Assembly: GCA_020722215.1 (NCBI GenBank)
Contig: DYLG01000010.1
Coordinates: forward strand, 1 to 34,124
Source of the DNA: Desulfomonile tiedjei
GTDB taxonomy: Bacteria > Desulfobacterota > Desulfomonilia > Desulfomonilales > Desulfomonilaceae
Direction of reading: 5' to 3'
Length of the DNA stretch: 34,124 nt
Part shown: positions 2,945 through 34,124 of the stretch, piece by piece
Position numbering within the stretch: position 1 is the first letter of the stretch
How the letters are laid out: each line of letters begins with the position of its first letter
Notes under the pieces: model-generated
Database searches by the model: none
Seen by the model: only the letters and a program-made list of their open reading frames with translations
Told to the model about the DNA's origin: nothing
Program-made: the position numbers and the translations under genes

Positions 2945-5038
2945 CTACCGCTTGCCTGGAATCAACAATGATCTTAGGAAGCCTTTGGTAATGCCGGCCA
3001 AGTATCCGGCTCTCTTTGTGAGTTCCACTGTTCGTTTGCCGAGTCGCCTGCGGGCCCTTTTACCGGCGATATACGGCCGCATCAGGCGCAAAAGAGGGAC
3101 TAAACGGCCTCGGAATTCGCGGCCGAACCTCCTCCAGGTACGCTTACGTCGAGGAATGAGTATCTCGGCCTTTGCGGCGCCCAAGAGATATTGTCTCTTG
3201 AAAATGTACCACAGGCGCATTTTGTGGGCAGGAGAATGGTGCAAGACCCAGCAATCCAAGCTGTAGTACACTCGCTGTTGATCCGCCGGGGTGACCTCGC
3301 GATAGGTGTCCAACACCTTGGCTTCCCCTCCGAATCCCAGTTTGGTTCCTCTCATTCCTATGGCCGGGTCAAATGCTCCCAGGCTTTCCAAAATGCTCCG
3401 CTTAATTATGAGATTCCCTCCGGATGTGCGGCACGTTGTGGAGAAGCCCGATACGTCGGCCGACTGGCGAATCTCGATTTCATCCTCGAACCAGCCTGGT
3501 TTGGCATCGGTGTAGTACGGGTATATGGGACCGCTGAGCAGATCCGGTTGATGTTTCCGGATCACGTCGTAAACGTTGGAGAGATAGGTCGGGGGAAGGA
3601 TCACATCGTCGTCCAGATATGCCAAGTACTCGCCCCGGGAGGCTTTGTATCCTCTATTTCTTGCATTGTTGAGCCCCTGGTTTTCTTCTTTAGCATAAAC
3701 GAAATGTCCGTGGGTCTTGCAATACGTTTCCACCAGATTTTCTGTTCCGTCGGTGGAATTGTTGTCCACTACCACGATTTCGAATGGTACGCCGTCGGCT
3801 TGTTGAGCGACCAGGCTTCTAAGACATTTGTCCAGTATTTTCTCCCGATTGAACGTGGGCACAATAACGGAGAGTCTGGGGCTTTCCGTTTCGGACTTCT
3901 CCCGCAACAGCGAATCGGGTCGCGGTGGAGCGTCCGCGGTCTTGTATCCATCGGTCGAGTAATTGTCCGATTCGTCGCCATAGGTGCGGGTTTGAAACCC
4001 GCCCCTACTACCCGATGTCATCTGGTGAGGAATTTTGCCAACGGCCGTGATCTCGATTTCCCCGTGCGGGCAACCTGCGCAATCAAATAGGCCCCGGAGC
4101 GGATCATTGTGATTGTCCCATTCAGCAGGCTTCTCCCGGAGCAAACCCGCCACAGCGCGGTGCCCGGAAATCTCTGCCATGGTCAGAGCGGTTCTTCCCA
4201 CACTGTCCCTTGCATCCACGCTTGCGCCCCGGTCCAGGAGCAATTTCACGATCTCTCCGTGTCCTCGGTCTGCGGCAATCATCAAAGCGGTTCGACCTAT
4301 CCTGTCCGTAGCGTTCACGTCAGCCCCGCGATCGATGAGCCGGCCGGCCAGTCTCAGGGCGCCTTTGTCCGCAGCCATCATGAGAGGGGTTCTGCCGAAG
4401 CTGTCCCTGACGCGGGCATTCAATCCCAACCACACCAAGCGCTCCGCAACCTGCAGATCATCGTCTTCCAGAGCCGCAATCAACGCTGAATGGTCATCGT
4501 ATCTGGAAGGTCTGATCCCAACGTTCTTCAACGAATCCGGCCCGATCGGATCATAGCCTTTGTCGGCCAGAATCTGCGCGACGTGGAAATGTCTCCCTTT
4601 CAATGCCGCCACGAGCGCGGTCCAGCCGTTTTGGGCCTTGACGGTGACGTCGGCCCCTTGCTTGAGAAGTTCTTCCGCCACCTTGGCGCGGCCTGTGCCT
4701 GCCGCAATGAACAGAGCTGTTCTGCCTCTCAAGTCTTCCGAATTGACATTGGCTCCCCTGTGCAGAAGAACTTCTACAGTTCGGAGATCACCTCCATAAA
4801 CCGCGGCCATGAGGGGAGTGTTGCCGTGAATTGAGGCTTGGTTGGCATCCGCACCCTGATCCAAGAGGAATTCAGCGACGCGCGGGCTGCCCCTCAGCGA
4901 CGCTTTGGTCAAGGCGCTCCATCCCATTGCATCCCTGAAATGGATGTCCGCCCCGAGCTTAACCAGCAGTTGAACCACCGACTTGAGCCCCAGTCTCGCT
5001 GCGATAAGGAGCATTCTATTAGCGTAGTTTTTGCTCAT
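2945..5038 (-). CDS. Ankyrin-repeat / family 2 glycosyltransferase fusion (long form)
   Basis: A 697-residue two-domain protein. Residues about 8-310 form roughly nine ankyrin repeats with recurring GRTALxxAA...LLDRGAxVxAxD units, normally a protein-protein interaction scaffold. A linker (about 311-386) carries a CxxC pair (C320/C323). From about 387 there is a GT-A fold, family 2 glycosyltransferase: LSVIVPTFNREKIL, VVVDNNSTDGT, NxARNRG and the metal/nucleotide site AYLDDDV. A basic C-terminal tail follows. I see no signal peptide or clear membrane helix, so it is probably cytoplasmic. It is a paralogue of the next gene (5223-6686) and was probably produced by tandem duplication. The linker is about 35 residues longer here and includes a palindromic repeat at DNA level (3981-4007). 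The sugar donor is unknown. The start ATG has only a weak Shine-Dalgarno sequence. Confidence 0.9.
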   Translation of the reverse strand: MSKNYANRMLLIAARLGLKSVVQLLVKLGADIHFRDAMGWSALTKASLRGSPRVAEFLLDQGADANQASIHGNTPLMAAVYGGDLRTVEVLLHRGANVNSEDLRGRTALFIAAGTGRAKVAEELLKQGADVTVKAQNGWTALVAALKGRHFHVAQILADKGYDPIGPDSLKNVGIRPSRYDDHSALIAALEDDDLQVAERLVWLGLNARVRDSFGRTPLMMAADKGALRLAGRLIDRGADVNATDRIGRTALMIAADRGHGEIVKLLLDRGASVDARDSVGRTALTMAEISGHRAVAGLLREKPAEWDNHNDPLRGLFDCAGCPHGEIEITAVGKIPHQMTSGSRGGFQTRTYGDESDNYSTDGYKTADAPPRPDSLLREKSETESPRLSVIVPTFNREKILDKCLRSLVAQQADGVPFEIVVVDNNSTDGTENLVETYCKTHGHFVYAKEENQGLNNARNRGYKASRGEYLAYLDDDVILPPTYLSNVYDVIRKHQPDLLSGPIYPYYTDAKPGWFEDEIEIRQSADVSGFSTTCRTSGGNLIIKRSILESLGAFDPAIGMRGTKLGFGGEAKVLDTYREVTPADQQRVYYSLDCWVLHHSPAHKMRLWYIFKRQYLLGAAKAEILIPRRKRTWRRFGREFRGRLVPLLRLMRPYIAGKRARRRLGKRTVELTKRAGYLAGITKGFLRSLLIPGKR
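3981..4007. repeat. REP-like palindrome inside a coding sequence
   Basis: The core GCGGGTTT-G-AAACCCGC is a perfect 8-bp inverted repeat, extended outward by TAGG/CCTA with a single mismatch. It lies in frame within the ankyrin-GT2 gene and encodes part of the interdomain linker (about residues 343-353). A related sequence (GGCGGGTTTGAAGCCC) occurs between genes at 22351. The shorter paralogue lacks this insertion. Confidence 0.75.
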
Positions 5039-5222: not shown

Positions 5223-6686
5223 TCACTTTTTCGAGGCAACGAGAATCTTGACAAATTCTTTTGTGAATCCTGCGAGCAAAGCCGCGCGACGGGCCAACTC
5301 AGCCTTGCGCTTCCCCACGCGCATTCCTGCAACGACACCACGCGCGCATTCCACCGCTAGACGAGTTACGGGCCGCAACCGACGCCTGGCTTCCCCAAGA
5401 TACCGTGGCCACGTGCGAGTCTCCTTTGGGAACTTCACATGCGCAATCGCGGCACCCTGGATGTAAGACCTTCTTAGAATGTACGCAATACGCATCTTGT
5501 ACGCCGGAACATGGTGAAGAACCCAGCAATCCGGACTGTAGAAGACCCTCTGCTCCATAGATGGGGTCACAGCGCGATACTTTCGCACCACCTGTGTCTC
5601 TCCCCCGAAACCGAGACCAGTCCCCTTCATGCCAATTCGAGGATCGAACATCCCAAGTTCTGCCAACTTCTGTTTCCTGAAGGCCATGTTGCCGCCGACT
5701 ATGTCGCAATCCATAGAGAACCCTGGGCTGCCCGTATGAAACAATGTTGCCAACTGATCATCGTACCAACCGGGTTTGGGGTCGGTGTAGTACGGGAATA
5801 CCGGGGCCCCGATCAGGTCGGGTTTGTGCTTGTCGATAATGGCGCACATGTTGGAGACATATGAGGACGGCACGATAACGTCGTCGTCCAGATATGCGAG
5901 ATATTCTCCCCGGGCCGCTTGAAAGCCCCTGTTCCTGGCGTGGCTGAGCCCCTGGTTCTCTTCCCGGACATAAACAAAGCGATTGTCACTGCGAATATAA
6001 CTCTCTACAAGATCCCTGGTCCCATCAGTGGAGTTGTTGTCCACCACTACTATTTCGAATAGCCTGCCGTCAGTCTTCTGGGCGGCCAGGCTTCTCAGAC
6101 ATATGTCCAGGATTTTCTCCCGATTGAATGTCGGCACAATCAGAGAAAGTTGAGGGTCTTCCATTCCGGCCTGTTCAGGCGACAGATTCCGGGCGGGTCC
6201 TGCCCTTTCAACGCCCATGAAATCTATCTCACCGTACCGGCAATCTGCACAACTTAATAGGCCACAGACCAGATCATCAGGGTTGTCCCATGTCGGAAGC
6301 TTCTCCCTGAGCAGGTCCACCACCGCCCGGCGTCCGGAAATAAGGGCCATGGTGAGGGCAGTTCTTCCCACACTGTCCGTTGCATCGACCGCTGCACCCT
6401 TGTCTAGGAGCATCTTCACGATTTCCAGGTGTCCCCTATCGGCGGCCGTCATCAACGCCGTTCGGCCAACCAGGTCTCTTGCGTCCACCTGTGAGCCGGC
6501 GTCCAGCAACAGCCTGACCACACGACCGAACCCTTTGTCCGCTGCCATAATCAGCGGTGTGCGTCCAAGGTGGTCTGCGCTTTCCTGGTCGGCCCCGGAT
6601 ACGGCGGCGCGCGCGGCGGACACGGGGTCTTCCCGCTCCAACGCTCTGATCAGCGGTGATATCGCGGAGGTCGTCGGACCCACCAT
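5223..6686 (-). CDS. Ankyrin-repeat / family 2 glycosyltransferase fusion (short form)
   Basis: A 487-residue paralogue of the neighbouring fusion protein. About four ankyrin repeats (residues 10-135) lead into a linker with a conserved CxxC (C146/C149, LSCADCRYGEID). A family 2 glycosyltransferase domain follows from about 180: LSLIVPTFNREKIL, VVVDNNSTDGT, HARNRG and AYLDDDVI. The C-terminal tail is basic. The ATG at 6686 is chosen because GAGGT precedes it at good spacing and it lies 37 nt beyond the upstream gene's stop. A longer frame back to 6767 would overlap that gene and adds unrelated residues. The protein probably transfers a sugar to a surface-glycan intermediate in the cytoplasm, with the repeats docking it to a partner. 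Substrate and partner are unknown. Confidence 0.9.
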   Translation of the reverse strand: MVGPTTSAISPLIRALEREDPVSAARAAVSGADQESADHLGRTPLIMAADKGFGRVVRLLLDAGSQVDARDLVGRTALMTAADRGHLEIVKMLLDKGAAVDATDSVGRTALTMALISGRRAVVDLLREKLPTWDNPDDLVCGLLSCADCRYGEIDFMGVERAGPARNLSPEQAGMEDPQLSLIVPTFNREKILDICLRSLAAQKTDGRLFEIVVVDNNSTDGTRDLVESYIRSDNRFVYVREENQGLSHARNRGFQAARGEYLAYLDDDVIVPSSYVSNMCAIIDKHKPDLIGAPVFPYYTDPKPGWYDDQLATLFHTGSPGFSMDCDIVGGNMAFRKQKLAELGMFDPRIGMKGTGLGFGGETQVVRKYRAVTPSMEQRVFYSPDCWVLHHVPAYKMRIAYILRRSYIQGAAIAHVKFPKETRTWPRYLGEARRRLRPVTRLAVECARGVVAGMRVGKRKAELARRAALLAGFTKEFVKILVASKK

Positions 6687-6723
6687 AATTACCTCGTTCC
6701 ATAAGCGCTTGAAGGTCCGCCTG

Positions 6724-7713
6724 TCAGGATTTCCGAAGACGGGCCAGGCAAAGACAGTATTCCGCAATATAACCCGTGGCTAGGCCAGCCTGTAACAGAA
6801 AACCGGCCGCATGCTTTCTCAAGTTTCTCTCTCTTAGGGCTCCAGTGAAGTGCCTGAACGAGCACTCGATGACCTGCCGGATTCGCGAACGGCTCTGCCG
6901 ATAAAAATCCAGCCGGCATGACTGCCGATCCGACTGCTCGATTCGTCTGGTGGCCACTCCTGCGGCATATCCCCTTGTCCAGAAATGGGAGACCCTCATT
7001 TTCTCCTTTGGCACGTGATGGAAAACCTTGCATTCGAGAGAGTAGTAGACTTTCTGCTCATCAACCGGCGTCACGCGGCGGTATATGTCCAGGGGTTTTC
7101 TGTCCGCGCCCAAGCGGATGGTTTTGCCCTCCATTCCCAGGTTCACGTCGAACATTCCCAGGCGTTCAAGCACGTTCTTTCGTATGACGAGATTGCTGCC
7201 CGGCGCCCCGCAAGTCGTCGAGAATCCCGATTTCTGCTCAAACTTGCGGGTTTCCAGTTCGTCGTCGAACCAAGACGGCTTGGGGTCGGTGTAGTACGGA
7301 TAAATGGGACCGCACACGAAGTCCGGATCAAATTGGGTGATCACACGAAGCACACAGGCCACGTAATCAGGCTCGGCAATTGCGTCGTCATCCAGGAACG
7401 CAACATAGGTCCCGCGCGCATTCCGGCATCCAATGTTGCGAGCGTGCGAAACGCCTTGTCGCTCCTCTTTGAGATATCGAAAATGCCCGTATCGACAGCA
7501 GTGTGCGGCGACAAGGTCACGCGTCCGATCCGTTGAGTTGTTGTCTACAACGATTACCTCGAAAGCCTTGCCGGCACAAGACTGCTCCGCAAGGCTCTTG
7601 AGGCAATAGTCCAGGAACCTTTCCCGGTTGAACGTAGCGACGATTATCGAGAGGAAGGGCTCATGCGACTGCCAGCTTGCAGCCTTAGCCTCGATCAGGT
7701 CAAGCGCCCCCAA
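6724..7713 (-). CDS. Family 2 glycosyltransferase
   Basis: A GT-A fold glycosyltransferase of about 330 residues closely related to the GT2 domains of the two ankyrin fusions but without ankyrin repeats. Visible motifs are LSIIVATFNRERFL, VIVVDNNSTD, HARNIG and AFLDDDA, then YPYYTDPKPSWFDDE shared with the paralogues. TTG at 7713 is preferred as start: AGAGGG lies six bases upstream and the overlap with the preceding gene is then only 14 nt. An ATG at 7770 would overlap that gene by 71 nt, and its only purine run abuts the start codon. The protein is cytoplasmic and probably acts in the same surface-glycan pathway. The donor and acceptor are not readable from sequence. Confidence 0.85.
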   Translation of the reverse strand: MGALDLIEAKAASWQSHEPFLSIIVATFNRERFLDYCLKSLAEQSCAGKAFEVIVVDNNSTDRTRDLVAAHCCRYGHFRYLKEERQGVSHARNIGCRNARGTYVAFLDDDAIAEPDYVACVLRVITQFDPDFVCGPIYPYYTDPKPSWFDDELETRKFEQKSGFSTTCGAPGSNLVIRKNVLERLGMFDVNLGMEGKTIRLGADRKPLDIYRRVTPVDEQKVYYSLECKVFHHVPKEKMRVSHFWTRGYAAGVATRRIEQSDRQSCRLDFYRQSRSRIRQVIECSFRHFTGALRERNLRKHAAGFLLQAGLATGYIAEYCLCLARLRKS

Positions 7714-22426: not shown

Positions 22427-23257
22427 CTACCGGGGTCTCGCGGTGAGGAATCCGTCAAACTTCAACCTCTGGTGGGGGCATGCATCAATGCATCGAGCAC
22501 AGTTCGTGCACAATAGATTGCCGCCTTCCCGATAGGGCTGCAATCCCATGGGGCACGCGGACAGGCAGGGGCTTTCCTTGCAGCATGGAACGGCAGGATT
22601 CTTCGTTTCCGAGACTATTCTTAAGGTGAACGAAGACCGGAAAAGAGACAGGAATGCTCCGGTTGGGCAGAAGAACCTGCACCAGAAACGCGGAATCAGG
22701 GTGAACTCGAGGCAAAGCAGCACCGCGATGAATCCGATTTCCAGCGAAAAGGTTCGCTCCTTGACGAAAATCATTGCCTCCGTGCTTGTGATTCCCGGAG
22801 CACTCAGATAGTTGAGCACCGGTATTCCAATGGCGCCAGCAGCGGCCGTGCCCACCAGCAGGAAACCGAAACGCCACATATTCGCGGAAAAGGATCTCTT
22901 CACGGCGGGCGATGCGGGTTCGGCTTTCTTGAGTATGCGGGTTGCCGCTGCTAACCGAGCCGCACAGGCAACATCGGACAGGAGATGATACGGGCACATC
23001 CAACCGCACCATACCCGCCCCAGGAGCAAGGCCAGAAGCACCGGAAATATTGCGGCGCTCAGGAGTGGAACCGTCAGCTCTCCCGCGGCAAACATGGCCT
23101 GGAGAATCACCACCGGGTCTGCGATTCCGAGTCCTCCTATGTTAATTGCATAGAATGTTCCCGTGATCGCATAGATCTCATAGAGGTTCAGTACCGGCAC
23201 GGCGAACATGAGCGCAAACACTGCAATTTGTGAAGCGCGTCTGTAACGTCTGTACAT
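22427..23257 (-). CDS. napH: NapH-type quinol dehydrogenase membrane Fe-S protein
   Basis: A 276-residue membrane protein. It has about four transmembrane helices and the two cytoplasmic cysteine motifs of the NapH/CcoG group: CGWMCPY and CRFFCPTGA. Near the C-terminus a ferredoxin-type CTNCARCIDACPH binds a [4Fe-4S] cluster; a second cysteine-rich stretch (CCKESPCLSACP) may hold another. In Nap systems NapH and NapG form a second route for quinol electrons into NapA. The ATG overlaps the napG stop codon (TGATG), so translation is coupled. It is the last gene of the ten-gene operon. Confidence 0.9.
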   Translation of the reverse strand: MYRRYRRASQIAVFALMFAVPVLNLYEIYAITGTFYAINIGGLGIADPVVILQAMFAAGELTVPLLSAAIFPVLLALLLGRVWCGWMCPYHLLSDVACAARLAAATRILKKAEPASPAVKRSFSANMWRFGFLLVGTAAAGAIGIPVLNYLSAPGITSTEAMIFVKERTFSLEIGFIAVLLCLEFTLIPRFWCRFFCPTGAFLSLFRSSFTLRIVSETKNPAVPCCKESPCLSACPMGLQPYREGGNLLCTNCARCIDACPHQRLKFDGFLTARPR

Positions 23258-24039
23258 CAGTCCCAGCCCTCAATTTGGTCGGATGTTTCGTAAGGGAATT
23301 GGAAATCGGATGCGTCTCTCGATCCATCTATCTTGTATTTGCGGTCGAGAAGCTCTTCGCCCTTCAAGGCTCCTGACGAAGGCTTTTCAGCCCGGGAAAC
23401 CGCGGAATCGTGGTGGCGCCGGGCCTTGCCGAAATAGAACCCTGCCTCATCCACACGCCCCATGCCCGAGGGAATCACGTTGATCGCTCGCCTCGGCCTT
23501 GTGGGACAGCGTTCCGTGCATATTCCGCATCCGACGCATCCGTCCAGGACAACCGGAAAAAGGTTGCCCTTGAGCGTGATCGCTTTGTCCTGCAAAGGGC
23601 AGACGTTGTAACAAGTGTTGCACAGCGCTCCGATCTTTTGCTTAGCCCCTTGAGGCACTTTGTCCCGGTCTAGGAAAAGATGGCTGTAGCAAATGGATGG
23701 GTCGATCTTTGCTTTGCCCATTACCGCTTTTTCGGGGTTGCGCAGATGAGCGTCGAGCGCTCCGGTGGGGCACAGGCGACAACAGGCCATGCAAAGGTAG
23801 CAGGCTTTTTGCTCGGGGAATACATAAGGGGTGCCCATGGGCGGACCAACACCGGCCCTCTTGATGGACCCGTACGGGCAGACTTCCAGGCAGCGATTGC
23901 ACCGGATGCAAAGCCCCATGAACCGGCGCTCATCCACCGCGCCCGGAGGCCTTAGCCGGTTGATAGCGTAGTTGTTCACAAACGGATTCTGGCCGCGAAC
24001 AAAAACCCTTTCCAGAAATTCTCTCAAGCCGTCAGCCAA
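23257..24039 (-). CDS. napG: NapG-type ferredoxin with four [4Fe-4S] motifs
   Basis: A 260-residue electron-transfer protein. RPPGAVDERRF leads into cluster motif one (C44, C47, C50, C54). Motif two is C80, C83, C86, C90; motif three CNTCYNVCP is at 140-148; motif four CVGCGICTERCP is at 168-179. This matches NapG, the partner of NapH. Unlike typical NapG it has no twin-arginine leader, so it may be exported with NapH or act on the cytoplasmic side. The start is a TTG at 24039, nine bases beyond the napD stop. GAGGTGA lies 12 bases upstream of it, and no in-frame ATG precedes the first cysteine motif except M41. Confidence 0.88.
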   Translation of the reverse strand: MADGLREFLERVFVRGQNPFVNNYAINRLRPPGAVDERRFMGLCIRCNRCLEVCPYGSIKRAGVGPPMGTPYVFPEQKACYLCMACCRLCPTGALDAHLRNPEKAVMGKAKIDPSICYSHLFLDRDKVPQGAKQKIGALCNTCYNVCPLQDKAITLKGNLFPVVLDGCVGCGICTERCPTRPRRAINVIPSGMGRVDEAGFYFGKARRHHDSAVSRAEKPSSGALKGEELLDRKYKIDGSRDASDFQFPYETSDQIEGWD

Positions 24040-26777: not shown

Positions 26778-27287
26778 TTAGAATCCGGGCACATTGAATC
26801 GCTTCTCTCTTCCCGGAGCGAATCGTTCATAGTCCTTTATCTTGTGAACCGTGAACCAGTGCGCATGGTGACAAAAGGAGCAATTGGTCACTAACGCATT
26901 GGGGGGCATGTTATTTACTTGGAGCGAGTGACAACCGATGCAGACCACCTTGTCCGGTCGGGCCCTGTAATTGTTCACGTCACCGTGGCACACGCCGCAC
27001 GCGACGTTGTTGATGCCGTGCTTTGATCCCAGCCACTGCTGATACCGGACGGGATCCTCCTTCTTGTGGCAATCTATGCAACTCTGCTTCTGGAACTGGA
27101 CCCTGTGGCAATCCGGCAGTTCCCCCGGAGCCGGAGGAGGGGCCACGAACTGTTTCCAGCCCGGGTCCAGCGTGGAGGGAGTCGGGTTCTTGGGACAATC
27201 GGGGCAATCTTCCTTGGGAGTCGCAGCGGACACGGGCCCTACCATAATGATGCCGAGGATCGCTATGAAGCAGACCACCTTTCTCAT
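26778..27287 (-). CDS. napM: NapM-like periplasmic tetrahaem cytochrome c
   Basis: A 169-residue protein with a signal peptide (about 1-21, cleavage near VSA-A) and four CxxCH haem sites: C70-H74, C97-H101, C116-H120 and C136-H140. Two further cysteines (CPDC at 28-31) have no following His and may form a disulfide. NapM of Desulfovibrio is a small tetrahaem cytochrome encoded just before napA, and this gene has the same position and haem number. It would carry electrons to NapA in place of NapB. ATG 27287 follows GGAGAGG at good spacing. The frame is open further upstream but that extension has no start signal or family features. Confidence 0.85.
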   Translation of the reverse strand: MRKVVCFIAILGIIMVGPVSAATPKEDCPDCPKNPTPSTLDPGWKQFVAPPPAPGELPDCHRVQFQKQSCIDCHKKEDPVRYQQWLGSKHGINNVACGVCHGDVNNYRARPDKVVCIGCHSLQVNNMPPNALVTNCSFCHHAHWFTVHKIKDYERFAPGREKRFNVPGF

Positions 27288-27349: not shown

Positions 27350-28177
27350 TCATTTGCATGCCTTCAGAGCTTCGACAAGACCGGGCACTGCCGGGGCTCC
27401 GATCTTCCTCAACGTGTCCTCGGCCGGCCCGGAGATGTTCGGATCGCGTCGCAGAACAAGCCGTATCAGTGGGTCCACCGCCGGGGCTCCGATCTGCGCC
27501 AGGGCCTCCGAAGCAGCGTCTGCGGAAGGGCGGTCCCCTTTTTCCATGACCTCGGTGAGCTGAGGAACCGCGCTTGCGCCGATTCGCCCAAGCGCTTCCG
27601 CTGCTGCCGACGCCCTGTTCCGGTTGTCGCTTGCCAGCGAGTCGATCAAGGCCCGCACTGAGTCCGGCGCCATCGCGCCAAGGGCCAGTATGGCCGCGTC
27701 GCGAACCTTTTTGTTCGCGTCTCCCAGACATTCGATCAGAGCCGGGATTGAGGCTTTCGACTGAGCCCTGATGCTGAAGAGTGCCAGCGCGGCAGCTTCT
27801 CTCACCAGAGGCTCCTGATCCTTCAGCGCCTCCACAAGGACATCCACCGCCGGCTTTGCGTTGGGGCCAAGCTCCGACAGAGCCTCCACGACAGTCAATC
27901 GAACAACCTCGTTCGGGTGCTTAACGGCGGATGCAAGGGCGCGAACAGTATCGGCTTCCAATCGACGTTGTTTCTTGAGCGCATTGGCTGCACGCATGGC
28001 AGTCAGCGGATCGGGACTGCCGAGATCTCTGGTCAGAGATGCCGGCTCCAGGGGACTCGCTGCCTGTTCCGCCGCCGAGGCCGCCATCGAAGACAGGAAC
28101 GCCAAGATCAATCCGGCGATCATCAAAACGGTTCCCGGAACTGTTGATCCGGAGGATTGCGCAGATCTGGGTTTCAT
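27350..28177 (-). CDS. Exported HEAT-repeat protein
   Basis: A 275-residue protein. After a short polar start comes a hydrophobic stretch (about 14-36, VLMIAGLILAFLSS) ending at an AxA-like site, so it is exported or membrane-anchored with its repeats outside. The remainder is made of about six HEAT repeats such as LVEALKDQEPLVREAAALAL and LIECLGDANKKVRDAAILAL. There are no cofactor motifs. It lies within the respiratory operon (19 nt after the NrfD gene, 62 nt before napM), so I infer a scaffold or assembly role for the multi-subunit reductase. This partner is not part of any Nap cluster I know. ATG 28177 is chosen because GGGAGAG precedes it. Confidence 0.85.
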   Translation of the reverse strand: MKPRSAQSSGSTVPGTVLMIAGLILAFLSSMAASAAEQAASPLEPASLTRDLGSPDPLTAMRAANALKKQRRLEADTVRALASAVKHPNEVVRLTVVEALSELGPNAKPAVDVLVEALKDQEPLVREAAALALFSIRAQSKASIPALIECLGDANKKVRDAAILALGAMAPDSVRALIDSLASDNRNRASAAAEALGRIGASAVPQLTEVMEKGDRPSADAASEALAQIGAPAVDPLIRLVLRRDPNISGPAEDTLRKIGAPAVPGLVEALKACK

Positions 28178-28196
28178 GGCTCTCCCTTCGTCCGAG

Positions 28197-29414
28197 TCAG
28201 GCCGCGGTCCGAGCGTCCTTGGTGAGTTCGCCCGTTTCAATGGGTATGATCAGCTTCAGGATCAAGGTCAATATGAGCAGTCCAAGAGACCATACCCCAA
28301 GCGTGACGAGAAGCTCCACCGCCGTAGGAGCATATTCCCAGACTTCTCCCAAAGGCGAGGGAATGAACCCCGGAATAATTAACCCGATTCCTTTCTCGAT
28401 CCAGATACCCAGTATGATGAGCACGCACCCCACATTGAGCGTGGCAAAGTTCCTGCGGGTGGCAGGGACGAGAAAAATGAGGAATGCCGCCACATTGAAT
28501 GCGAACGCACACCATATCCACGGAACAAGTCTGCCTTTTCCGTGAAGTCCTGCATACAGATATTGCAGCGGCGAAAGATGATGCGTGTCCGAATAGAGTT
28601 CCTTGAAGAATTCTGCTCCCAGCAAGAACAGGTTGATGGCCATCGCGTAAGCGATCATTTCGGCGATCTTGAACAGCGCCTCGTCCTTCACGTGGAATTT
28701 CGTGTACTTCCTTACCACCTGATAGAGAAGCATCACCAAGGCCGGTCCGGAGCAGAATGCGGAGGCCAGGAACCTCGGCGCGAGGATAGACGCGTTCCAG
28801 AAGGGTCGAGCAGCGAGGCCGTTGTAGATGAACGCCGTGACCGTGTGGATGCTCACCGCCCAGGGGATCGAAAGGATGATGAAGGGCGTTATGAAACGCA
28901 TGTTCGTGGGTTCGTTGTGATATGCCTTCCAGAGGATGTATCCCGGAATGAACAGGTTGAGAAACAGGTACCCGTTCAGCACCACTATGTCCCAACCCAA
29001 CAGGGACGTGGGCAGATTGAGAATCCCCCAGCCTGGAATCAGATGCCACAGCCTGTCAGGTCGGCCCAGGTCGGCAGTCACGAACATGAGACACATCAAG
29101 AGAGCGCTTACGGCAAGGGCTTCACCCACGATGACTATGTCTCGGATGGGGCCGAATTGGTACACGTAAGCAGGAATGATCAGCAGTACCGCGGCAGCGG
29201 CAACCCCGACCAGAAAGGTGAAATTACCGATGTAGAATCCCCACGACACGTAACCGGTCATGCCGGTGACAATCAGGCCCGTCTGAAGCTGCTTGGAATA
29301 AGCCGCGATCCCCACACAGGCAAATGTCAACAGGACAAGTACCCACACGTAGTAGACCGGGGGTCCTGTTACCAGCGTCTTGACGGCCCGCACAAAGAAT
29401 CCGGATCTCTGCAT
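28197..29414 (-). CDS. NrfD/DsrP-type quinol-interacting integral membrane protein
   Basis: A 405-residue protein with about ten transmembrane helices. The segment VSWGFYIGNFTFLVGVAAAA and TADLGRPDRLWHL are typical of the NrfD/PsrC family, which includes DsrP and the ActC/QrcD proteins. It binds and oxidises (or reduces) quinol in the inner membrane and exchanges electrons with an Fe-S partner, here the gene just upstream (15 nt). GAGGG precedes the ATG. In this operon it most likely replaces NapC as entry point for menaquinol electrons. It has no cofactor-binding cysteines of its own, as is normal for the family. Confidence 0.92.
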   Translation of the reverse strand: MQRSGFFVRAVKTLVTGPPVYYVWVLVLLTFACVGIAAYSKQLQTGLIVTGMTGYVSWGFYIGNFTFLVGVAAAAVLLIIPAYVYQFGPIRDIVIVGEALAVSALLMCLMFVTADLGRPDRLWHLIPGWGILNLPTSLLGWDIVVLNGYLFLNLFIPGYILWKAYHNEPTNMRFITPFIILSIPWAVSIHTVTAFIYNGLAARPFWNASILAPRFLASAFCSGPALVMLLYQVVRKYTKFHVKDEALFKIAEMIAYAMAINLFLLGAEFFKELYSDTHHLSPLQYLYAGLHGKGRLVPWIWCAFAFNVAAFLIFLVPATRRNFATLNVGCVLIILGIWIEKGIGLIIPGFIPSPLGEVWEYAPTAVELLVTLGVWSLGLLILTLILKLIIPIETGELTKDARTAA

Positions 29415-29429
29415 GATTGCCCTCGACTG

Positions 29430-30401
29430 TCAGATCGCGAAGAAGTAATAGAACTTCGGTTGGGTATTCAGCTCTTCTTTCAGGCGGAACACCCTCTTGG
29501 TCTTTATTATCCGGTTGATCTCGCTGTCGGGATCAAGAAGGTTGCCGAATTTCCTGGCCCCGACCGGGCAGACCTCGACGCATGCCGGGTACTTTCCCTT
29601 TCTCACTCTCTGGATACAGAAGGTGCATTTTTCCACAACGTTGCGCATACGGGGCCTGTTACCCAGGTAATGGGTTTGGGTGTTGATCCTGTCTTTGGGA
29701 ATAACCGGCTCGGCGAAGTTGAACCACCGCCCCATGTACGGACAGGCTGCCATGCAGTAACGGCACCCTATGCACCAGTTGTAGTCCACCACGACTATGC
29801 CGTCGGGTTCGGTCCAGGTTGCCTGGACAGGGCACACCTTTGTGCATGGAGGATTCGCGCAGTGCTGGCACTGGACCGGCATGTAGTAATAGCCCTGTTC
29901 GGGCACTTCCTCGGGATTGTAGTAGATCGTGGATTCCTCCAGATCCATGTTCCCGCGCTTGAATCTGAGCACTCGTATGTATTGAATCTGCGGGTCTCTG
30001 GACTGGTTGTTCTCCTCGACGCAGGCATAAACGCAGCGCCTGCAACCGATGCACCGCTGAATGTCCAGCCCGTAGGCATACAGAGTCCCGTCAATGGGGC
30101 CCTCAGCGCCCACAACGAACTCTTTTCCATATTTTTCCTTGTATTGGGTCCGGAGTCTCTCTATGGTCCCCTCGATCTCCTCCTTGGTCATCTGCTTGAA
30201 ATTCTTCTGAAAGAACTCCTGCCAGGTGCATGAACTCACGGCGAACAAGCCGAGCACTCCTGCCGCACTTTTCAGGAAGGTGCGGCGGTCGGGCAGCGGC
30301 TCTCGGGTATTGCCGGATTCCCGATCCGGTCCCTTTGGGTCTACGTCGTCATGCCCTTGCTCAGGGACGGATTCTTCGTCGGTGAATTGTCGATCACTCA
30401 T
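29430..30401 (-). CDS. Tat-exported four-cluster Fe-S protein (NrfC/DsrO/HybA type)
   Basis: A 323-residue electron-transfer protein with a twin-arginine motif (R39RTFLK) and a hydrophobic region ending VSSC58, which looks like a lipobox, so it may be a Tat lipoprotein. Four [4Fe-4S] sites are visible: C117/120/123/127, C178/181/186/190, C210/213/216/220 and C259/262/274/278. It should sit on the periplasmic face bound to the NrfD-type protein encoded 15 nt downstream, passing electrons to the tetrahaem cytochrome encoded 12 nt upstream. A 38-residue acidic extension before the RR motif is longer than usual. Start is the only in-frame ATG near the leader. Confidence 0.92.
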   Translation of the reverse strand: MSDRQFTDEESVPEQGHDDVDPKGPDRESGNTREPLPDRRTFLKSAAGVLGLFAVSSCTWQEFFQKNFKQMTKEEIEGTIERLRTQYKEKYGKEFVVGAEGPIDGTLYAYGLDIQRCIGCRRCVYACVEENNQSRDPQIQYIRVLRFKRGNMDLEESTIYYNPEEVPEQGYYYMPVQCQHCANPPCTKVCPVQATWTEPDGIVVVDYNWCIGCRYCMAACPYMGRWFNFAEPVIPKDRINTQTHYLGNRPRMRNVVEKCTFCIQRVRKGKYPACVEVCPVGARKFGNLLDPDSEINRIIKTKRVFRLKEELNTQPKFYYFFAI

Positions 30402-30413
30402 GGCTTTGCACCT

Positions 30414-31037
30414 TCAGTGCTTGGCGGACTCGTCCTTGGGAGTCCAGGGTTTGCTGGGCGGCGGCATGGGCTCAAGAGTCTTGAACCTCGGAGAATGGGG
30501 AGAATGGCAGTTAACGCACAGGTAGTACTCTTTCTTGCCGTTCCATTCTCCTGTTCGTTTGCCGTGTATTCCTTCCCGCCAGTCCCTGTATTTGGTTCCA
30601 TGGCACTTGCCGCAGAGAAGATAGGAATGCTCGAAGGTGATCAAGGTGCCGTCGCTCAAGGGAAGAAGGTGGTTACGTTCTTCCGGGTGATGACAGTCCA
30701 GGCACCAGACCCTTACTCCGCCATGGTTCAGTTCGATGTTCCTGTGCACCAGCAGCGCCTCTTTTCTCCTGAAGTTGATAGGGAAGTCCTTTTTGGGCCC
30801 GTGGCACGCACTGCACGGGGAAATGTCTTTCGGAAGAGGCTTGACCGGTACTGGGAACTCCTCACCGGGTTTGACCTTGGGTTCCAACTGTTTCCGAAGA
30901 TCGCGGCGCAACTCGGGGAACGTCTCGACATAGGGTTGCGCGGAAGCGATGCTTGCCAAAAGTCCCCAATATGTTGCGAGCGTGCTCGAAATGAGGGCCG
31001 CGACAGCGACAACAAGGATTCGGTTTTTCCCTTTCAT
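30414..31037 (-). CDS. Tetrahaem cytochrome c of the NrfD module
   Basis: A 207-residue protein. An N-terminal hydrophobic segment (about 7-32) is either a signal peptide cleaved after ASA or an anchor. Four CxxCH sites follow: C75-H79, C112-H116, C142-H146 and C174-H178. It lies between the HAO-like cytochrome gene and the Fe-S gene, and should carry electrons from the Fe-S protein toward the periplasmic reductases. ATG 31037 is preferred because AAGGG lies about eight bases upstream; the ATG at 31061 lacks a Shine-Dalgarno sequence and adds eight charged residues before the leader. It is not NapC/NrfH-like in layout. Confidence 0.88.
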   Translation of the reverse strand: MKGKNRILVVAVAALISSTLATYWGLLASIASAQPYVETFPELRRDLRKQLEPKVKPGEEFPVPVKPLPKDISPCSACHGPKKDFPINFRRKEALLVHRNIELNHGGVRVWCLDCHHPEERNHLLPLSDGTLITFEHSYLLCGKCHGTKYRDWREGIHGKRTGEWNGKKEYYLCVNCHSPHSPRFKTLEPMPPPSKPWTPKDESAKH

Positions 31038-31070
31038 GGGCTCGCCCTTATCTCCGCTCATGCTGCGGGC

Positions 31071-32432
31071 TTACTGGGCTTCTCTGCCGCCGTAGCGTTT
31101 CTTGTAGAATTCCTCGACCCTCTTGAGTTGCTCTTTGCTCATCCCCTCCTTGTACCAGCGGTGCATGGGGTCCTTGAAAACAAGCTCGTCGAGCAAGGGC
31201 GCTGCGGCTGCCTTGCCGCCCATAATGTGTTCCACTTCCGGTAGGAATTCCACGTAGAAATGCTTGGCAACTTCGTACATGCCGTGCCACCACGCATAGT
31301 CCGGTCCCATCATCGAAGCGCCGTGGCGGCCTCGACGGCCCTCGTGATGCCACAATTCCCAATAGATCCAATCGAGCTTGTCGTCGAAGTCGGCCTTGCT
31401 GATCTTGCCCATGTCAATGAGTTTCTTGCGGATATTCGTGGCAGGAATGCCGAACTTGTTGTTGTAAAGCTCCACAAGATCGTCAAACTGTTTGTAGAAA
31501 TCCTGTACCATGAAGTCGCTGTGGCACTGGCGGCACACGTCGTGCATGTTTAACCTGCGCTGTGTCCAGTTAGTCAGCTTCTTGGAAACGGCAGGTCTCA
31601 GCGTCCAGGAGATACGGGCGCCCACTTCGTGCGTGGCCGGCTGGTTCGGTGTGGCAGAGATATGGCATGTGGCACAGGTGGCTGCATCCTGATAGTCCAC
31701 ACCTACGATCCACTGGTCTCTATCCATGTTCAGCTTGTCCCTGAAAGCCTGGTACAGTATCCCGTGTTTGGACTCGTTGTAAATCTCTATCTGCGGATGA
31801 TCCGGCCCAAGGTGACACTTACCGCACGCGTCCGGCCGTCTGGCTTGTTCCTTGGAAAACCTGTGCCTCGTGTGGCACGCCGAGCAACTCCCCTTGCTCC
31901 CGTCCGGATTGATGCGGCCTATGCCCGTATTGGGCCAGGTTGCCGGGTCCAGCCGGCCGTTCTGGACAACCTTGATGTTGGAGCCATGGCACTGACGGCA
32001 TCCCGTGGAAACGCAAGGCGCTCCGCCCACCACTTCGCCCAGGTAGTTGTCCGAAGAATTGAGAATGTCCGCTGCCTTGGCGTGGTGCGAGGACTGTTGC
32101 TGATCGAACTGTTCCTTGTGGCATCGGGAGCAGTCCTTAGGACTCACCAAGGTTACGATCCAGAATCCCCTGTGGTCGTAGCCGTCCGGATCGCCGGGCT
32201 CTTTGTCCGTCTTTTTCTTGGCCTGGTGACAGTCATAGCAGTTGACGCCCGCCTGGCCCATCTTGCCCGTTCGCCACATCTTGTGGAGGGCCGGCGTCTT
32301 CAACTCGTGACACTTGATGCAGACCTGCCCCTCCTGGGAACCGTAAAGCTTCGGATCGACCTTCACCGCAGCAACCGCGGCATAGGAACAGACGAAGATC
32401 AACAGCGCGACGGGGATGAGAATTCTTCTCAT
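31071..32432 (-). CDS. Octahaem cytochrome c, hydroxylamine oxidoreductase (HAO) family
   Basis: A 453-residue periplasmic protein with a signal peptide (about 1-21) and eight CxxCH sites: C38, C65, C101, C145, C183, C203, C253 and C300. The spacing follows Nitrosomonas HAO, including the double motif around haems four and five (APCVSTGCRQCH, then SCSACHTRH). CGKCHLGPDH carries D211/H212, equivalent to the active-site Asp-His after HAO's CATCHSGVDH. HAO oxidises hydroxylamine using a tyrosine cross-linked P460 haem. Here the corresponding C-terminal region reads DYAWWHGMYE (378-387), and my alignment puts Trp at the cross-link position, as expected for reductive enzymes that take nitrite or hydroxylamine to ammonium. 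ATG 32432 follows GGGAGTGGAG. It is the first gene of the operon. Confidence 0.9.
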   Translation of the reverse strand: MRRILIPVALLIFVCSYAAVAAVKVDPKLYGSQEGQVCIKCHELKTPALHKMWRTGKMGQAGVNCYDCHQAKKKTDKEPGDPDGYDHRGFWIVTLVSPKDCSRCHKEQFDQQQSSHHAKAADILNSSDNYLGEVVGGAPCVSTGCRQCHGSNIKVVQNGRLDPATWPNTGIGRINPDGSKGSCSACHTRHRFSKEQARRPDACGKCHLGPDHPQIEIYNESKHGILYQAFRDKLNMDRDQWIVGVDYQDAATCATCHISATPNQPATHEVGARISWTLRPAVSKKLTNWTQRRLNMHDVCRQCHSDFMVQDFYKQFDDLVELYNNKFGIPATNIRKKLIDMGKISKADFDDKLDWIYWELWHHEGRRGRHGASMMGPDYAWWHGMYEVAKHFYVEFLPEVEHIMGGKAAAAPLLDELVFKDPMHRWYKEGMSKEQLKRVEEFYKKRYGGREAQ

Positions 32433-32808: not shown

Positions 32809-32932
32809 CACCGCGGCCGGATGACGAAATGGACGCGGCGGTAATTTTGCGGTGGGGCATGAGTCCTGTCGCAGATTCCCCTCCATGCCGTCGATTTGAG
32901 GAGACTTCAGCCACTGCGTCGGGTGTTCGGTG

Positions 32933-34124
32933 ATGCTGTCTCGATTCAGATCTCTGTTTGCCAAAAGGATTTCCTTCAAGTTCCTGGCGAGCACCGCGCT
33001 GGCCACTCTGGTGATATTCCTGTTCCTGATCGTGTGGTTCTCGGTCGAGCAGGAGAAGCACATCATGGAGCAGGTGAAGACGCAGGCGATCATCCTTCAC
33101 AAGCAGATAGTGCTGACACGACAGTGGGTTTCCGACCACCGGGCAGTGCTCGTTCCCAAAACGGCTGAGGAACAGATCTCTCCTTTTTTCGAGGAACCCG
33201 AGGTAAGAGGTTCCGACGGCAAGGCTTACATCAAGATATCGCCGTCCTCAATAACCAGGATTCTTTCGCAACGGGCGCGCAAGGACGAACTCTACTGGTT
33301 CAAGCTTACCAACACGGATCTTCTCAACCCTGCCAACGCGCCGGATGAATACGAGATTCAAGCCTTGGAGCAGTTCAGGGGAAATGGGGTCCAAGGTGTC
33401 TTCCGAACGGAACGCATTGACGGCAAACCCGTGCTCCGTTACGTCGCGCCCGTACGCTCTTCCGAAAGCTGTTTGCAATGCCACATGGTGCAGAAATACA
33501 AGCCGGGCGAAGTGGCAGGGTGTTTGAGCATTTATGTGCCCATGGATGCCGCCATGACGGCAATCAACCGCAACAGGGCCATCCTGTTGGGCGGCGGAGT
33601 CGGGCTGGCCGCCGCGCTGGTCGTTTTGCTTTTCCTGGCGACGCGTTCCATGGTGTTCAAGCGCATCGGCGAGATCAGGGCAGCAATGAGCCGAATGACC
33701 AGCACAACTCCCGGCGAGGGTCCGACAGACCGCGGAGACGAACTCAAGGAAATCGCCGACTCCTGTTATCTCCTGGACGAGAAACTCAAGAACCAACACC
33801 TGGAACTGGAACGAAAGATCGCCGAGGCAACCAGGGATCTCTCGGGGGCCAACCGGAACCTGGAAGCGGCAAATGAAGACCTGCGAATGCTGAACCAAGC
33901 CAAGTCGGACTTCTTCTCGGACATCTCACACGAACTCAGGACCCCGTTGACCAACATCAAGGGAGCGGCAGACCTCCTCCTGAGGAAACTCTCGTGCGAC
34001 GACCCGAGCTGCATCGAGATCATAAGGCGAAACGCAGATCATCTGATCAAAATCGTTGTTGATTTCCTCGATTACTCGAAGATCGAGGCAGGACAGTTGG
34101 AGCTGCATCCAGCTTACGGCTCGG
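32933..34124 (+). CDS. Membrane histidine kinase with haem-type CxxCH sensor domain (3' end cut by window)
   Basis: The first 397 codons of a sensor kinase, truncated by the window edge. TM1 (about 17-37) and TM2 (about 216-240) bracket a periplasmic domain of the DUF3365/Tll0287-like type, with C180LQCH184 near its end (ESCLQCHMVQKYKPGEVAG), a probable covalent c-type haem site. A HAMP-like linker and a long coiled coil (about 275-320) lead to the HisKA domain, with phospho-accepting H333 in SDISHELRTPL. The ATPase domain would lie beyond the window. The ATG at 32933 has only a weak ribosome-binding site, and no better in-frame start follows the upstream TGA. Divergent from the respiratory operon, it is the likely regulator of it, sensing redox state, NO or another haem ligand. 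Confidence 0.88.
   Translation, partial: MLSRFRSLFAKRISFKFLASTALATLVIFLFLIVWFSVEQEKHIMEQVKTQAIILHKQIVLTRQWVSDHRAVLVPKTAEEQISPFFEEPEVRGSDGKAYIKISPSSITRILSQRARKDELYWFKLTNTDLLNPANAPDEYEIQALEQFRGNGVQGVFRTERIDGKPVLRYVAPVRSSESCLQCHMVQKYKPGEVAGCLSIYVPMDAAMTAINRNRAILLGGGVGLAAALVVLLFLATRSMVFKRIGEIRAAMSRMTSTTPGEGPTDRGDELKEIADSCYLLDEKLKNQHLELERKIAEATRDLSGANRNLEAANEDLRMLNQAKSDFFSDISHELRTPLTNIKGAADLLLRKLSCDDPSCIEIIRRNADHLIKIVVDFLDYSKIEAGQLELHPAYGS

Follow-up and report, generated by a model that had tools for sequence, protein, structure and literature searches.

Genomes are usually scored for nitrate ammonification by NrfA, the pentahaem cytochrome that operates with NrfBCD. Among octahaem cytochromes c (OCCs) of the HAO fold, the enzymes of Nitrosomonas europaea (NeHAO; PDB 1fgj/4fas) and Kuenenia (KsHAO; 4n4j) combine eight CxxCH motifs with an Asp-His pair and a cross-link tyrosine (Tyr467, within TYxxG), and act oxidatively in pathways other than the one proposed below. 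Kuenenia kustc0458 (HAOr; 6h5l) shares the fold and the Asp-His pair, lacks the tyrosine and has been proposed to be reductive. Its nitrite activity is low and disputed, the cross-linked kustc1061 reduced nitrite faster in vitro, and the link between tyrosine loss and reduction leans largely on kustc0458 itself (PMC11897245). A 2025 study termed tyrosine-less HAOs reductive, inferred reduction for most non-anammox HAOs, and traced the cross-link tyrosine to a His-bearing ancestor (PMC12758564). Ignicoccus hospitalis IhOCC (4qo5) likewise has eight haems, the HAO fold and no cross-link tyrosine. In Thermosulfurimonas dismutans and Dissulfuribacter thermophilus, NapMADGH occurs with a multihaem HaoA homologue, NrfD, an Fe-S protein and a cytochrome c, and without NrfA; a nitrite role was proposed for this HaoA/NrfD cluster and a sulfur alternative left open (PMC5276818). 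A nap-hao cluster has also been described in Deferribacter autotrophicus (PMC6896113).

The OCC described here is encoded in a 34,124-nucleotide stretch of DNA (the window) from an uncultured sulfate-reducer-like bacterium of the Desulfomonile family. It is a known kind of enzyme in a known type of cluster, and would most likely act as a nitrite reductase. Both the gene combination (PMC5276818) and the reductive label for tyrosine-less HAOs (PMC12758564) are already known. If nitrite is indeed reduced by the OCC, many lineages, Desulfomonile-type bacteria among them, would keep nitrogen as ammonium without being counted, and the view of the HAO fold as a reductase before cross-linked HAOs turned to oxidation would gain support.

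Table 1. The OCC cluster and its divergent neighbour, with the evidence for each assignment.
Feature	Coordinates	Strand	Evidence
Octahaem cytochrome c (OCC, HAO-like)	31071..32432	(-)	453 aa; N-terminal hydrophobic signal segment; 8 CxxCH; D211/H212; W381/W382 at cross-link site
Tetrahaem cytochrome c	30414..31061	(-)	4 CxxCH; one N-terminal hydrophobic segment; kept beside OCC in family
NrfC/DsrO-like periplasmic Fe-S protein	29430..30401	(-)	DRRTFLK Tat-type signal; four 4Fe-4S motif sets; DsrO 191 bits (cut-off 200)
NrfD/DsrP-like integral membrane quinol-interacting subunit	28197..29414	(-)	~10 hydrophobic segments; PF03916 119 bits; NF045798 426 bits (cut-off 350)
HEAT-repeat protein	27350..28240	(-)	Hydrophobic N-terminal segment; mechanical ORF, true start uncertain
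NapM-like small tetrahaem cytochrome	26778..27287	(-)	Position and haem count; order as in PMC5276818
NapA-type periplasmic nitrate reductase, 801 aa	24348..26753	(-)	Twin-arginine signal; Desulfovibrio NapA (2jim/2nap) 763 bits
NapD-like chaperone, 89 aa	24049..24318	(-)	PF03927 28.8 bits (cut-off 28)
NapG-like ferredoxin	23257..24039	(-)	
NapH-like membrane ferredoxin	22427..23257	(-)	
Divergent sensor histidine kinase	32930..34124	(+)	Tll0287-like periplasmic domain with CLQCH haem motif; runs off window

The OCC occupies a single ATG-started open reading frame closed by a stop codon, with exactly the coordinates and strand given in the initial annotation of this DNA. That annotation had also reported eight CxxCH motifs and D211/H212 as in HAO; a motif scan and an alignment to NeHAO bore this out, and the local sequences it quoted were accurate. 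The haem motifs lie at residues 38, 65, 101, 145, 183, 203, 253 and 300 and all are CxxCH; shuffled copies of the protein held a mean of 0.03 and at most 1. In the alignment, D211-H212 lay opposite the Asp-His of NeHAO (CATCHSGVDHNN). Among 15 relatives picked without a motif filter, D211 was invariant and H212 was at least 90% conserved. Both residues were invariant in a set of 65 relatives, a result partly imposed by the search, since CH[LI]GPDHP was one of its two patterns.

The protein matched the Pfam family Multi-haem_cyto (PF13447). No curated NCBIfam model covered it; the top hit, to hydrazine dehydrogenase, was partial and reached 64 bits (cut-off 900). Among solved structures, the closest by sequence was IhOCC (E 7e-42), followed by NeHAO (E 3e-21), KsHAO, kustc0458, Brocadia HAO and HDH. 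An AlphaFold2 model built from 65 sequences (pLDDT 87.7, pTM 0.81) also matched IhOCC best (Z 28.1 over 381 residues, 32% identity), with NeHAO, KsHAO and kustc0458 at Z 22-23; HAO-fold matches spanned Z 20-28 overall, and NrfA scored near 11. By motifs, sequence homology and predicted structure, the protein is an HAO-fold octahaem cytochrome c. IhOCC differs from it in carrying D-V for D-H, in lacking the WHHEGRR segment described below, and in length (521 residues against 453). The OCC had no match to the NrfA family (PF02335) and no CxxCK motif. Octahaem tetrathionate reductase was considered because of the WHHEGRR motif, and was set aside as the OCC had no TIGR04315 match at E 0.001. Elsewhere in the same genome, the top match to this model reached 23 bits (cut-off 375).

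The cluster begins with the OCC and runs along one strand through the tetrahaem cytochrome, the NrfC/DsrO-like Fe-S protein, the NrfD/DsrP-like subunit and the HEAT-repeat protein to NapM-NapA-NapD-NapG-NapH (Table 1). Formate dehydrogenase was rejected as an identity for the 801-aa molybdoenzyme, as its match to Desulfovibrio NapA in a PDB search scored nearly double that to the best formate dehydrogenase (763 against 400 bits); sequence comparison firmly assigns the product as NapA. The T. dismutans and D. thermophilus cluster agrees with this one in gene content, from which orthology was inferred, and belongs to lineages other than the Desulfomonile family. The NrfD-type protein passes the NCBIfam DsrP cut-off despite its nap/OCC setting, and automatic annotation would make it a sulfate-reduction subunit. 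The divergent histidine kinase adjoins the OCC in most family genomes; judged from its sequence, it is possibly a haem-c sensor that regulates the cluster. FNR-like and HcpR-like sites were not clearly above chance, and none fell in the OCC/kinase intergenic region.

We consider it probable that the OCC is a periplasmic HAO-fold reductase in NrfA's place, predicted to reduce nitrite at a non-P460 haem 4 and fed from menaquinol through the NrfCD-like pair. The NrfD/DsrP-like subunit would draw electrons from menaquinol; these would travel via the 4x[4Fe-4S] protein and then the tetrahaem cytochrome, a proposed carrier with an NrfB-like role, to the OCC. The arrangement would resemble NrfABCD, with the OCC for NrfA. 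NapMADGH would convert nitrate to nitrite, which the OCC would then reduce at haem 4. The product would most likely be ammonium, favoured because the Desulfomonile family lacks NrfA; it might be just hydroxylamine or NO, with Hcp completing the reduction. An invariant WHHEGRRxRxG...PDYxxWHG segment may replace the cross-link at the subunit interface, providing an anionic substrate with protons or charge. The NrfA system shares the proposed function and the feed through NrfC/NrfD-like proteins and a small cytochrome, and differs in its catalytic protein. For kustc0458 the redox partner is kustc0457 rather than an NrfCD-like module.

Within the Desulfomonile family, the OCC was present at 77% identity or more in 15 of 18 genomes, and the cluster order was unchanged in every relative with a long enough contig. 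A NapA orthologue accompanied the OCC in 14 of these 15 genomes, the remaining contig ending inside the cluster, and occurred in none of the three family genomes that lack the OCC; these co-occurrence counts draw on few lineages and several incomplete MAGs (the window's own genome is 82% complete). Full-length NrfA was found in none of the 18 genomes and in 7 of 24 from another family of the same class (f2), an exclusion between NrfA and the OCC that is phylogenetically confounded. One Desulfomonile is entered as nitrate-positive with lactate in a comparison table of PMC7773648. Hcp was encoded in all 12 family genomes tested. The same 12-genome test recovered no full octahaem tetrathionate reductase; one genome (G007) gave a sub-threshold match that was partial and contained a stop.

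We also scanned GTDB contigs with two search patterns, one of them CH[LI]GPDHP. The records behind the best 80 OCC loci carry labels of about 15 phyla and include both MAGs and isolates. In 28 of these loci an NrfCD-like, NapC-like, Rieske/cytochrome b, NapA/NapB, NrfA or sulfide-dehydrogenase gene was adjacent; the other 52, many on short contigs, had no such neighbour that we recognised. NrfCD-like neighbours accounted for 8 of the best 80 loci, mainly in the Desulfomonile family. A NapC-type quinol dehydrogenase stood beside the OCC in Vibrio, Photobacterium and Aestuariirhabdus, and Rieske and cytochrome b genes in Nitrospinaceae, KSB1 and Myxococcota. In Cloacimonadota the neighbours were NapA-NapG with NrfCD-like genes. 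Judged by gene identity, the recognised neighbours in these 28 of the best 80 loci would mostly be routes for quinol electrons to a periplasmic reductase.

Three arrangements among these loci deserve separate mention. Two Myxococcota loci (L102, L108) carry Rieske, cytochrome b, OCC, NapA and NapB in a row, which suggests that nitrate/nitrite reduction is fed from quinol in a bc-type manner. In a Geobacteraceae MAG (L042, 4263-7831), OCC, a NapC-type cytochrome and NrfA lie in a row; with NrfA placed second downstream of it, this OCC cannot be viewed simply as an NrfA substitute. In three sulfur-oxidising Gammaproteobacteria (L055, L056, L073), the neighbours of the OCC relative are a conserved TPR protein and flavocytochrome c sulfide dehydrogenase.

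When the stretch between haem motif 5 and the C-terminus was used for a maximum-likelihood tree, the window clade joined IhOCC and a second, IhOCC-like type of OCC from the same family. NeHAO, KsHAO, kustc0458 and a group of ~420-aa OCCs were split from it with support of 100/99, in a tree where the PDB pieces and the other side of the split form long branches, attraction between NeHAO and KsHAO is possible, and the root and deep order are unsure.

We counted two sets of loci against a role in nitrite reduction: the Geobacteraceae locus with its NrfA neighbour, and the three sulfur-bacterial loci with flavocytochrome c sulfide dehydrogenase. Sulfur respiration, too, uses NrfD-type modules, and multihaem nitrite reductases often act on sulfite as well. 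The substrate of the OCC might be polysulfide or a sulfur oxyanion such as tetrathionate or sulfite, instead of nitrite, with the DsrOP-like module as the feed. The DsrO/DsrP-like partner genes and the sulfur-bacterial relatives fit such a role, which is also the alternative named by the authors of PMC5276818. Yet the entire nap operon follows directly and co-oriented in each family genome with enough contig, and adjacency to NapA recurs in Cloacimonadota, Myxococcota and Halochromatium. A sulfur substrate is on this evidence unlikely.

NO and hydroxylamine are ligands of the HAO fold, as is established for HAO itself, and the position of the OCC beside NrfA in Geobacteraceae would suit a reductase of hydroxylamine or NO whose task is to remove toxic intermediates of nitrate/nitrite reduction rather than to carry out the main respiratory step. 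We regard this, too, as improbable for the window's OCC: with no full-length NrfA in its family another nitrite reducer would be needed, and a dedicated NrfCD-like electron feed suggests respiration.

The cross-link site bears on the nature of haem 4 in the OCC. With a profile built on 15 diverse OCC relatives (A2), hmmsearch aligned D378-Y379-A380-W381-W382-H383-G384 with G463-(g464)-W465-T466-Y467-T468-E469-G470 of NeHAO, placing W381 opposite the cross-link Tyr467. MAFFT alignment including the PDB stretches gave the identical register, with KsHAO TYGNG in the same columns as NeHAO TYTEG. The window clade has one additional residue between G384 and Y393, and the partner of Tyr467 therefore shifts by one, to W382, when the alignment is anchored C-terminally by the YVE motif or by structural end points (model 406-409 = NeHAO 491-494). 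Both registers give Trp opposite Tyr467, so the Trp assigned by YVE anchoring in the initial annotation holds (W382, or W381 by profile and MAFFT). Across 65 relatives, the W381 column contained Trp in 46, Gln in 16, His in 3 and Tyr in none, and W382 was invariant. A Trp occupies the same position in kustc0458 (DVSWWWG against DYAWWHG), which belongs to another tree clade. That the OCC lacks the cross-link tyrosine is well supported by these alignments, and haem 4 is accordingly expected to be an ordinary c-type haem because no tyrosine stands at the cross-link position.

An oxidative HAO with its cross-link shifted to Y379 had been left open by the initial annotation, as this residue lies two positions from the expected site; it is also nearly invariant (Tyr in 64 of 65 relatives). 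We consider this very unlikely because Y379 aligns with the non-cross-linked W465 of NeHAO, with Trp in IhOCC and with Val in kustc0458, and is Phe in the one remaining relative. In none of the alignments made did Y379 fall opposite Tyr467. The genome also gave no ammonia monooxygenase match, in a search run without a positive control and with none in the control genomes either. A purely electron-conducting, non-catalytic OCC, to which its eight haems and the nearby tetrahaem cytochromes might point, is highly improbable given that the D211/H212 pair of the haem-4 pocket, like the segment next to it, shows the conservation seen in catalytic HAOs.

Reduction rather than oxidation, as the initial annotation had proposed, remains the best reading of the OCC, but by a different route. 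The step from tyrosine loss to reduction is mere correlation, and tyrosine loss alone is a weak predictor because the nitrite activity of kustc0458 is disputed. As read from gene content, the context (nap genes clustered with NrfCD-like genes, and no NrfA) supports reduction better than tyrosine loss does; this strongest evidence had gone unused.

Nitrite reduction by the OCC may extend beyond the Desulfomonile family. We tentatively suggest, at somewhat short of an even chance, that the clade comprises widespread NrfA-independent, quinol-fed nitrite reductases, in which one OCC core is combined with interchangeable modules (NrfCD, NapC or Rieske/cytochrome b) and the invariant WHHEGRR...PDYxxWHG stands in for the cross-link at the subunit interface.

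The window's genome also encodes a second, IhOCC-like octahaem cytochrome (locus L128, 3365-4885 (-), on contig C114 of G000), which adjoins two AhpC/TSA-Redoxin proteins. Desulfomonile-family copies of this second type (L020, L021) have D-V instead of D-H. Further along the window, at 2945-5038 and 5223-6767 on the (-) strand, two proteins show an unusual combination by Pfam, with N-terminal ankyrin repeats fused to a family-2 glycosyltransferase.
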